Positions 42,600 through 46,734 of a stretch of DNA of 64,000 bases are shown piece after piece (the stretch's first letter is position 1; each line of letters opens with the position of its first letter). Made by a program: the position numbers and the translations under genes. The stretch covers positions 434,001 through 498,000 of the forward strand of contig NC_016620.1 in NCBI RefSeq assembly GCF_000210915.2, read 5' to 3'. Below the pieces are notes generated by a model. That model saw nothing but the letters and a program-made list of their open reading frames with translations. It had not been told where the DNA came from and searched no databases. The stretch comes from Halobacteriovorax marinus SJ (GTDB taxonomy: Bacteria; Bdellovibrionota; Bacteriovoracia; Bacteriovoracales; Bacteriovoracaceae).

Positions 42600-43043
42600 A
42601 TGGCAAAGTATTCTAAAGATGAAAACAGATTAAAAGAATTGAGTGAATTGCAATTTGATGTCACTCAAAGAGATGCAACAGAGAGGGCCTTCACTGGCGA
42701 GTATTGGGATACTAAAGATGAGGGTCTCTATGTTGATATTGTCTCAGGAGAACCTCTATTTACATCAATGGATAAATTCGACTCAGGATGTGGTTGGCCA
42801 AGTTTTACTAGGCCAATCGAACAAGACTCTTTAACTGAGCATGAAGATTACAATCTTTCAATGAGAAGAGTGGAGGTGAGGTCCAAGCATGCCGACTCTC
42901 ACTTAGGTCACGTTTTTCCTGATGGTCCAGCACCTACTGGACTTAGGTATTGCATTAACTCTGCAAGCTTAAGATTTATTCCAGTTTCAAATCTAGAAGA
43001 AGAGGGATATGGAGATTACATCCCTCTGTTTAAAAAAGATTAA
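42600..43043 (+). CDS. msrB: Zinc-less peptide-methionine (R)-S-oxide reductase
   Basis: Catalytic Cys118 in [12 protein letters not shown] and resolving Cys64 in SGCGWPSF give a two-cysteine enzyme. The four zinc-binding cysteines found in the exported MsrB at 26.8 kb are absent ([14 protein letters not shown] and [12 protein letters not shown] instead). No signal peptide, so cytoplasmic. It abuts the RND gene and shares TTAA stop bases with the convergent mscS gene. 147 residues. Confidence 0.92.
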
Positions 43044-43900
43044 GACTTTCCTTGCATTTCAATTGTTCTAATTGGAAACGGTATTGTAATAGCATTTTCG
43101 TCGTAATGCTTCTTGATACTTAAGATAGCCTGGTGTCTAGAGTTAAAGAAATTGTAATTCTTTGTAAAGTGAATCCATACTTTTGCACAAAGATTAATCG
43201 AACTATCACCAAACTCTTCAAAGTGAACTTCCACCTCTGAAGTTTCAACTCGTCCGTCGATTTCTTCTAGGGCCTTCTTAGTCACTTCTGTAACCAGCTC
43301 TAGGTCGTCGGAATAGGAGACCCCGACTTTAATGTCTAATCTTCTAGTTGGTGTTGTACTGTAATTAATGAAGGGCTTAGTAAACATATCCTTATTTGGA
43401 ATAAGTACTTCAAGACCTTGAAAAGTCATAATACTGGTCGTTCTAAGTGAGATTTTTTTGACCTCTCCTAAGTAACTATCAATTTCAACAATATCCCCAA
43501 CTTGATAAGGCTCCTTAAAGGCAATGAAAATACCTGAAACAAAATTAGATGCAATTTCTTGAAAGGCAAAACCAAGTGCTAAACCAATAACTCCAGCACC
43601 TGCTAGTAGGGATGTAACAGTCTTTTCTAGGTGTAGTACTTCTAAAGAGATAAAGACACCTACGAGAAGAATTGTAAGGTAGATACTAGTTCCGATTAAA
43701 TCTACTACAGTTCTACTTTTAAAAAATCTTCTAAGTAGTGGTGTTGAAATCTTTTTCACAAGATGAGAAAGAAGGATAAATAGAAGAATAACGCTAAAGG
43801 CGACAATGATATTGGGGAGAATCTTAAGCAGTGAACCAATCCAGCTCACTACCTTCTCTTGTAAAATGGAATAAATATTTTCAGTATTTATTTTCTTCAA
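43040..43900 (-). CDS. mscS: MscS-family mechanosensitive channel
   Basis: Three N-terminal membrane helices, the last being the pore-lining TM3 ([28 protein letters not shown]), then the beta domain [13 protein letters not shown] and the C-terminal cage. It opens on membrane tension to release solutes in osmotic downshock. 286 residues, the size of E. coli MscS. The start is TTG with AGGAG six bases upstream. It follows the large peptidase gene by 11 bases on the same strand. Confidence 0.93.
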
Positions 43901-43911
43901 ATGATACTCCT

Positions 43912-46734
43912 TTAAAAAGCTAGTGATGTGGCTAAATAAAGTTCACCAACATTGCTCTTGAATTTTAGTTTGTGTGCATATCTGACACCGAAGTTAATCG
44001 GAAGTTTTCTTAAAAATACAGACTCAAATTCAAGCTCAAGCCCTGTACTATTAAAAGTTGTATTTAGTGAATTTGACTCAATCTTAGTGCTGTCAAAGAA
44101 AGTGTTAACTGTAAGTCTTCTTAGATAGTACAGCCCCCAGATATCAAAGTCTGGAGTCGCCAGAGGGAATGCGTAATTTGCTGTAATCTTCTGGTAGTGT
44201 GGAACACTCTCGTACTCGTACCCTCTAGAGAATACATTCTCCGTTGGATTCATTAACATTGGAAGAAAGCGATAAGAGTTAATATCGTTTCTTTGTTTTT
44301 CTTCGCTGAAAGTAAATCTAAATGCATCATGCTTAAATAAGCCTGGTATTTGAATTTTTCCGTATTGATAGAGTTTATATGAAGAATCTCTTTTCTCATT
44401 ATTCCCTTTTGCATTCTCGTACTTGGCAAAGTATGAAATAGCCCAAGGTGACATTATTGATCGTGCTGTAAGATCTTTTGAAAGGTTGAAGTAGAATTCA
44501 GCATAAGTATTTAAAAAATATCTATTATCGTATGTTGGTCTTGTCGAGATTGCTTCGTAGTCTCTTGTGTCAACATATCTTCCCCCAACAGTAACGGCGC
44601 TGATTAGATTGTAGAGATTTTTCTTGTGGAAATAGGGAAGGGTCATTGATGAGCCTACTTGTTTTTCTTTCCACGTAAGAGTTTGTTCACTATTAAAGAA
44701 GTCCACTTCTCTATTTCTAATCTCTCCTGAAATATTGAAGATAGGATAATACTTTTTGAAACTGATATTAAATAGTGAATAATTTTGATCTTCACTTCCG
44801 TCTTTTCCAACTTGAGCGAAGATTCCTAATGTTCTTAGATAATTATCTGTAGTAAGTGATAGGCCAAATCCATTTCCTGCAAAGAAGCTCCATGAGTGTG
44901 GTACGATAACTCCTTTGTCTAGGTCTCCGTACTCGTGCTTCTCATAATGCTTTGTTGGATTTGTTCTAAGCTTCGCTTGATCTTCTATAGGTCTAAGAGT
45001 GAATTTATTATAACTGTCTGATGGGTTGTCACCTAAGTATTTAAAGTTAACTAAGTTGGAAACATTAAAATTCTGACATTTTTCAAGTGGTGTAACACTA
45101 ATATGTGATCCATAGGCATCTTCACTACTATAGTATAGATTTTTTCTATCAGCGAAGGGAGAAGTAGCATTAATATCTACATTACTACATTTTTGAAGAT
45201 TTCCTTTATCTGTAAATTTAAAAATATTTGTTACTCCGTGATATTGAGCTTCAAAGTAAGTATTTTTATTTTCATCTACAAAAACTGAACTAATATTATT
45301 TCGAGATTTCGCAAGAATGGTTTTTTTGGTTCTCTTTTCAAGATTTACTTTGGCTAAGAATTTATAACCAGCAGGATCGGCAAGAATAGCGATAACCTCA
45401 TTTGAATTTATAGGGTACGCTTCAACAATTGTTTCAACTCCAAACCCCATTGAGGATATCTTTTCCCCATTTAAGTTAAAAGTTGAGAGTGTCCATTTTA
45501 AATCTTCATTGAACTCTGTAGCATAAAGACTTTTTCCATCTAATGAGAATCTTGGGTTATAGAGTCTTAGGCCAGATGTGATTTTTGTTTTTTCTCCATT
45601 CTCTAAATTGATAAGAATGAGATCAGAACTTCCCTTGTGACCGAATCTAGCGTGAGGAAGAAATTGTGAGTAAATAGCGTAATTATTTCTTATGTTTATT
45701 TTACTCATTCCTTTTGTAAAAGGGATTTCTGCTACTTTTACCTTATTGCCGTTCTCTTTCTTATAAAGAGTCCAGAAAGAGTCTAATGTATAATTTAGAT
45801 AGTATGTTTTATTGCCGATTTTAAATGGAGAGAGATTATCTCTGTAGTCTACTTTGGCGAGAGGTTTCTCCTTAATATCCTTTTTCCACGATGCTCTTAA
45901 TTCGTTCATAGTTTCATCATAGAAGTCGTAGAAAGATTGACCTGAAACTTCTTTAAAGGCGGTGTAGAGTTTATAAGGGTGTGGAAAGTGAACAATCTTA
46001 TCTGTCACTTTCTTCCAGAAATCATCTCCAAACTTTCTTGTTGCATTTGAGACGAGCACAAACCCAAATGGATAGTGATTTGGAAGGAGAGTATTGTAAG
46101 AGCCATTTATTAATTCATCATAAGTTGGTATTTGGTCACTTGTGAGCATAGCCTTTAGTCTGGAAAGAAAGTGTGGAGACCTCCCACGACCAGCATCTGT
46201 ATATTTAGTTTCTGACCAAACAGCGTCTCCCTCTAGGTACCATGGTTCAACGCCTGAGAATACACCAATTTGGTGGCCAACATCTCCAAGGATCCAAGAG
46301 AGAAATTTTATTGTACTTCTTCTTAGGTTATCAAATTGTTGAACATGCCTATATTCATGGATAGAGAGAGTTTGATACCACTCTGAAGACCCCAGTCTCG
46401 TAGAGAATTGAGAGGCACTAAACCATTCACTTCTTCTAGGTGCAAGAGATACAAATCCATTTGGTTGGGCGACCTCGGTACGAATAATTATAGGAACTTT
46501 CTTAGGGTCTTTTATACCATAAGTAAGACCGACATCTTTAGAGTAGTATTCAATTAGGTTTGCGATATACTCAGAGTCATTGCCAAGAGACTTTGGATAA
46601 ATAAGTCTCACATGATCATTTTCAATCATTTCCCAGTCTAGAGAACTTGAGCTTTGAGAGTAGTCTTGCTCTAGAAATAGTTGAGCATTAGTACTTAGTG
46701 ATAATAGGAAAAGAAAAAATAAGAGTTTCTTCAT
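43912..46734 (-). CDS. Predicted outer-membrane gluzincin: peptidase, propeller and beta-barrel
   Basis: A signal peptide (MKKLLFFLFLLSLSTNA) is followed by a peptidase-MA-like domain: HEYRH at 126-130 with the third zinc ligand Glu168 in PWYLEGDAVWSE. Residues about 290-600 contain repeated strand-rich segments like TolB-type propeller blades (RFSLDGKSLYATEF, SDLILINLENG). The last 330 residues are amphipathic strands ending in LYLATSLAF with the terminal Phe of outer-membrane barrels. I infer a surface-anchored zinc peptidase. 940 residues; I know no named family with this layout. mscS follows in the same transcript. Confidence 0.72.
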   Translation of the reverse strand: MKKLLFFLFLLSLSTNAQLFLEQDYSQSSSSLDWEMIENDHVRLIYPKSLGNDSEYIANLIEYYSKDVGLTYGIKDPKKVPIIIRTEVAQPNGFVSLAPRRSEWFSASQFSTRLGSSEWYQTLSIHEYRHVQQFDNLRRSTIKFLSWILGDVGHQIGVFSGVEPWYLEGDAVWSETKYTDAGRGRSPHFLSRLKAMLTSDQIPTYDELINGSYNTLLPNHYPFGFVLVSNATRKFGDDFWKKVTDKIVHFPHPYKLYTAFKEVSGQSFYDFYDETMNELRASWKKDIKEKPLAKVDYRDNLSPFKIGNKTYYLNYTLDSFWTLYKKENGNKVKVAEIPFTKGMSKINIRNNYAIYSQFLPHARFGHKGSSDLILINLENGEKTKITSGLRLYNPRFSLDGKSLYATEFNEDLKWTLSTFNLNGEKISSMGFGVETIVEAYPINSNEVIAILADPAGYKFLAKVNLEKRTKKTILAKSRNNISSVFVDENKNTYFEAQYHGVTNIFKFTDKGNLQKCSNVDINATSPFADRKNLYYSSEDAYGSHISVTPLEKCQNFNVSNLVNFKYLGDNPSDSYNKFTLRPIEDQAKLRTNPTKHYEKHEYGDLDKGVIVPHSWSFFAGNGFGLSLTTDNYLRTLGIFAQVGKDGSEDQNYSLFNISFKKYYPIFNISGEIRNREVDFFNSEQTLTWKEKQVGSSMTLPYFHKKNLYNLISAVTVGGRYVDTRDYEAISTRPTYDNRYFLNTYAEFYFNLSKDLTARSIMSPWAISYFAKYENAKGNNEKRDSSYKLYQYGKIQIPGLFKHDAFRFTFSEEKQRNDINSYRFLPMLMNPTENVFSRGYEYESVPHYQKITANYAFPLATPDFDIWGLYYLRRLTVNTFFDSTKIESNSLNTTFNSTGLELEFESVFLRKLPINFGVRYAHKLKFKSNVGELYLATSLAF

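Follow-up and report, generated by a model that had tools for sequence, protein, structure and literature searches.

What kind of protein is encoded by a long gene of Halobacteriovorax marinus SJ that carries a peptidase-like zinc-binding motif near its N terminus and ends in the manner of an outer-membrane barrel, and on which side of the membrane would its enzyme lie? The gene was found in the window, by which we mean the whole 64,000-nucleotide stretch of DNA that was analysed. It is a single open frame on the minus strand (43912..46734), with an ATG at 46734 and a stop codon at 43912-43914, and it encodes an intact protein of 940 amino acids. A preliminary description had noted within this frame a signal peptide, the motif HEYRH at residues 126-130, Glu168 in the context WYLEGDAVWSE and a C-terminal phenylalanine (Phe940), all of which are present. 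From these it had drawn a zinc peptidase held on the cell surface by its own barrel, with a use for a predator. The domains that it proposed are supported by the analyses below, but the surface location and the predatory role are not.

The N terminus (MKKLLFFLFLLSLSTNAQ) reads by eye as a signal peptide of about residues 1-17 (TNA/Q; 46684..46734, minus strand) without a lipobox cysteine, and most orthologues have a hydrophobic N terminus too. Full-length homologues are likewise encoded by one uninterrupted frame in many genomes. When the 940-residue protein was compared with Pfam, no family was matched at E values up to 1, and its sole NCBIfam match is to the TolB propeller (TIGR02800; residues 381-551, E = 4.8e-4). 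A PDB match of residues 267-330 to a beta-1,3-glucan-binding protein (E = 0.085) was taken as chance. The full-length AlphaFold prediction, made with four sequences (the query and three from Pedobacter), has a pLDDT of 36 and resolves the propeller alone. From sequence comparisons, the most likely order of parts is a signal peptide, a gluzincin domain, a TolB-like propeller and an Omp85-type barrel.

Three types of homologue were aligned for these comparisons. OG1 is the gene's own type, represented by 34 orthologues with 22-67% identity to the query. OG2 is a sister type of about 1000 amino acids (24 members), and OG3 is a third type (9 members) that includes a paralogue in the source genome.

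The zinc peptidase domain (residues about 19-298; 45841..46680, minus strand) was delimited by its invariant residues and by a domain-only model that resembles gluzincins. HEYRH (46345..46359, minus strand) provides the presumed zinc ligands H126 and H130 and the presumed catalytic residue E127, and the presumed third ligand, E168 in WYLEGDA (46231..46233, minus strand), lies 42 residues past H126. Loss of these His and Glu ligands was looked for among the orthologues. Instead, none of the 34 OG1 sequences differs at H126, E127, H130, E168, G169 or the acidic residue E175, and the HExxH and EG positions show no variation in OG2 (24/24) or OG3 (9/9). Five more positions, N92, W165, A171, Y221 and G224, join this invariant set both in OG1 and in a 28-member joint alignment of all types. 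In most OG1 members the Glu follows the first His of HExxH by 42 residues; the spacing is 38 in Pedobacter and almost throughout OG2 and OG3.

This residue pattern looks like that of a gluzincin of the Peptidase_MA kind. On the 940-residue protein itself, Pfam reports no match to Peptidase_MA_2 (PF13485) at E values up to 1, and no peptidase model of either Pfam or NCBIfam matches it; PF13485 is matched weakly by two relatives (best E = 0.041). The model of this domain on its own is of low confidence (pLDDT 48). Among solved structures, collagenase G comes closest to it, followed by M1 aminopeptidases, leukotriene A4 hydrolase and M60 peptidases, and almost every row of the fold search is a collagenase or an M1, M30, M60 or M61 peptidase (best Foldseek E = 0.19). 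Likewise, VIA placed gluzincins in nearly all of 50 rows with Z scores up to 7.4, a level that unrelated folds can reach, such that the ranking is support and not proof. The case for a gluzincin-type enzyme, as proposed in the preliminary description, is one of motif conservation, accompanied by fold matches from a low-confidence model. By analogy with such enzymes, zinc would be bound via H126, H130 and E168, E127 would serve as the general base, and Y221 is a candidate transition-state residue.

The middle of the protein (residues about 300-560, best match 381-551; 45055..45837, minus strand), previously described as propeller-like, is assigned as a TolB-like beta-propeller by both profile and model. 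TolB structures were retrieved from the PDB by the OG1 profile (E = 7.3e-12) and by the OG2 profile (E = 7.8e-15). In the full-length model, residues from about 370 to 550 form a propeller at a pLDDT of 70-86, and its best structural matches are TolB.

The C-terminal region (residues about 612-940; 43915..44901, minus strand) was connected to Omp85 proteins by a chain of hhalign comparisons that passes through OG2. Direct comparison of the OG1 barrel with BamA and TamA profiles gave no match (probability 0.1%), and PF01103 (Omp85) does not directly match the 940-residue protein in Pfam. The OG1 barrel does align with the OG2 barrel (97.6%, score 95.1), where shuffles score at most 34.9. The OG2 barrel in turn aligns with TamA-like Omp85 proteins from this phylum (92.1%; score 61.9, against at most 22.0 in 20 block shuffles and 15.2 on reversal) and with BamA (66.3%; score 46.3, against no more than 20.9 in shuffles). 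Moreover, PF01103 covers residues 750-1003 of the OG2 member L042 (E = 4.7e-5) at 23.5 bits, just below the cut-off of 24, and exceeds that cut-off on the OG2-like L127 (26.7 bits).

A second line of evidence is the signature RG(Y/F) of Omp85 loop 6. The protein has FSRGY at 835-839, with RGY at 837-839 (44218..44226, minus strand), followed by NYxFPL, and hhalign pairs this segment with RGYP...EYRFPL of OG2. R837 is invariant in the 34 OG1 sequences and RG is found in 31 of them, with RA in three Pedobacter rows. Where an Omp85 barrel would have 16 strands, about 17 amphipathic strand-like peaks can be counted from residue 620 onward, a crude count that cannot fix the strand number. In the four-sequence AlphaFold prediction this region has a pLDDT of about 20 and no barrel is formed. 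The outer-membrane barrel that had been proposed from the terminal phenylalanine and amphipathic pattern is thus supported by profile homology and a motif, not by a model. Judged by the link through OG2 and the loop-6 motif, this domain is probably related to Omp85. About 50 residues separate the propeller from the barrel, too few to hold a POTRA domain.

Comparison of the three domains separately reveals that OG1 and OG2 share them in the same order. The hhalign probabilities are 99.9% for the peptidase, 99.6% for the propeller and 97.7% for the barrel, with single-pair E values of 1.5e-37, 8.5e-25 and 1.7e-12, respectively. For OG3, hhalign gives no direct match to the OG1 propeller or barrel, and the OG3 barrel aligns with the OG2 barrel at 98.2%. 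The OG3-type copy in the source genome (L035, 2964-5672, plus strand; C1:742000-751000) is strongly divergent, encodes about 903-913 amino acids and has HExxH...EGIA intact. OG3 members elsewhere in the family also keep HExxH...EGIA, and their barrel is Omp85-related.

Whole-genome searches recovered full-length relatives with 24-67% identity within the genus and the family. A profile search at E values up to 0.001 matched 259 of the 291 genomes of the phylum, although the weakest of these matches may be propeller-only. Among the matches listed, 54 exceed 780 bits; these are full or near-full length, are of the OG1 type and come from three families of the phylum. Up to three paralogues occur per genome in this phylum. 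The family is also present in Bacteroidota, where 162 of 198 sampled genomes match and 24 of the 198 do so over nearly the full length (at least 499 bits), and an independent scan identified three Pedobacter records with a full-length homologue. No relative was detected in the viral contigs scanned or among the plasmid proteins searched.

In a tree of the peptidase domain, OG1 is split from OG2 plus OG3 with 100/100 support. The Bacteroidota sequences group in a single clade within OG1, and OG1 members of two other families (f6 and f22) nest within the source family (f1). Together these placements suggest horizontal transfer. The full-length homologues in Pedobacter and in Bacteroidota more widely also mean that a role specific to predators, as originally envisaged, is not supported.

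The preliminary description knew of no named family with this layout, a remark that holds in part. A WD40-Omp85 class, composed of a TolB-like propeller and an Omp85 barrel, was defined in 2014 by Heinz and Lithgow, who suggested a likeness to BamA fused with BamB (PMC4104836). Like that class, the 940-residue protein has its TolB-like propeller on the N-terminal side of a barrel of probable Omp85 type, and no POTRA lies between the two. Also, OG2 fits the description, and L042 and L127 match Pfam Omp85 directly, whereas the barrel of the 940-residue protein is more divergent and reaches Omp85 via OG2. A further difference, taken from that paper's text alone, is that no peptidase domain is named and the word "peptidase" is absent (PMC4104836), and to this extent the remark stands. 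We found no paper in the open-access literature that names a peptidase-propeller-Omp85 layout.

The Pfam family PF00149 is, we presume, that of the metallophosphoesterases. A "metalloprotease" label for it looks mistaken, and on this ground we rejected the Omp85 class that it defines as an identity for the protein. That class is "Metallo" (Omp85-"metalloprotease") of the paper by Heinz and Lithgow (PMC4104836).

Among other known systems, the type Vd patatin-Omp85 proteins PlpD and FplA also carry an enzyme N-terminal to an Omp85 barrel and serve as a precedent for topology (PMC11116518). They combine a patatin lipase with POTRA, whereas here a zinc peptidase is combined with a propeller, and Pfam finds neither a patatin-like domain nor a POTRA in the 940-residue protein. 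Gluzincins (PF13485; M1, M9 collagenase, M60) share HExxH with a downstream Glu and the pattern W-x-x-E-G-x-A, and are the main fold matches of the low-confidence model, but the protein is recognized by no peptidase model of Pfam or NCBIfam. TolB of the Tol-Pal system has propeller blades, but is a separate soluble periplasmic protein with neither peptidase nor barrel. BepA, an M48 periplasmic zinc peptidase, acts at the BAM complex and in outer-membrane protein assembly (PMC8423444, PMC7950410). It resembles the present protein by analogy only, as a zinc peptidase beneath the outer membrane that works on barrel proteins. BepA consists of M48 plus TPR unfused to a barrel, no sequence relation between the two proteins was found, and Peptidase_M48 has no Pfam match in the 940-residue protein at E values up to 1.

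We consider it moderately likely that the protein is an outer-membrane-anchored periplasmic zinc peptidase, with an Omp85-type barrel and a TolB-like propeller, that cleaves envelope proteins. The N-terminal domains of Omp85 superfamily proteins are periplasmic. Since the enzyme of PlpD, the best-studied fusion of an enzyme with Omp85, is periplasmic as well, we assign both the peptidase and the propeller to the periplasmic side of the outer membrane, and not to the cell surface as had been proposed. The Sec signal peptide would export the protein and the C-terminal barrel would insert in the outer membrane. Because there is no room for a POTRA domain, the propeller is placed directly beneath the barrel; the gluzincin domain, with its putative zinc site, would sit on the propeller, and both would be periplasmic. 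Given this placement and the precedent of BepA, the substrates are expected to be envelope proteins close to or at the barrel, most likely ones in the course of assembly at the outer membrane, in passage across it or misfolded there, and the propeller could be their docking surface. Such a protein might function like a fusion of BepA, TolB/BamB and Omp85, and its role is probably the processing or quality control of envelope proteins.

Genomic neighbours offer no functional anchor. An MscS-like channel gene on the same strand (43040..43900, minus) lies 11 bp downstream of the peptidase gene and has a TTG start preceded by AGGAG. Only the closest relative, L002, has the same neighbour, and the gene is probably co-transcribed with the peptidase gene in this lineage only and not part of the system. 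A conserved operon was rejected, as neighbours differ between genera. Subtilase genes (PF00082) lie beside the orthologue at four of the 34 orthologue loci, each in a different genus (L049, 2407-3894, minus; L007, 4839-5669, minus; L074, 4644-5882, plus; L076, 4544-5758, plus), and are divergent in three of the four. In a fifth genus, an M48 peptidase gene flanks the orthologue. One clade (L009, L069, L070 and L073) has a putative lipoprotein gene downstream of the orthologue with the shared N terminus SCS.G..KSGG, and the product from L073 has no Pfam match.

The subtilase neighbours could suggest shared extracellular proteolysis. Together with the signal peptide, barrel and intact active site, they are what might be expected if the barrel carried its own peptidase and propeller outside to digest external or prey protein, much as was proposed for type Vd. 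We nevertheless regard a surface peptidase as unlikely. PlpD, the type Vd archetype and a lipase-Omp85 fusion, was long thought to be surface-exposed until protease and cross-linking work put its enzyme in the periplasm (PMC11116518). Moreover, about 590 residues in two compact domains would need passage through an Omp85-type barrel, and Bacteroidota such as Pedobacter often have homologues.

The same four loci could be read differently, with the Omp85-type barrel exporting a partner that the attached peptidase cuts en route, for example to mature a neighbouring secreted subtilase. Indeed, several Omp85/TpsB proteins translocate partners (PMC4104836). However, neighbours vary between orthologues, that of the present gene is an MscS-like channel, and four subtilase genes in protease-rich genomes may be there by chance; we find coupled secretion and processing quite doubtful. 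Least probable is a protease-dead scaffold in which barrel and propeller assemble membrane proteins while the peptidase domain merely binds, for although propeller-Omp85 proteins have been likened to BamA-BamB (PMC4104836) and BepA promotes maturation besides degrading its client (PMC8423444), a dead enzyme is not expected where no aligned homologue varies at either His, at the Glu general base or at the third ligand.

The reading that we prefer is thus an active peptidase anchored beneath the outer membrane. A broader proposal can be put forward only tentatively, namely that the protein belongs to a phylum-wide family of one-chain, self-contained machines of the outer membrane. In these, a single polypeptide made up of an Omp85-type barrel, a zinc peptidase and a TolB/BamB-like platform would unite the assembly or export of membrane proteins with their maturation or quality control by proteolysis.

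As a rule, Omp85 proteins are portrayed as POTRA-bearing machines for assembly or translocation. PlpD shows that an Omp85 scaffold can also bear an enzyme, and here a conserved peptidase with its catalytic residues intact appears to be joined by a TolB-like propeller to a scaffold of Omp85 type. The family is large, its catalytic residues are intact and, as far as we could find in the open-access literature, it has not been the subject of a study. Since no Pfam or NCBIfam peptidase model recognizes the domain in the 940-residue protein, such proteins are expected to escape recognition as peptidases. Should they be periplasmic, they would amount to a membrane-anchored counterpart to quality control of the BepA type; if they lie on the surface, they would represent a new kind of exported protease.
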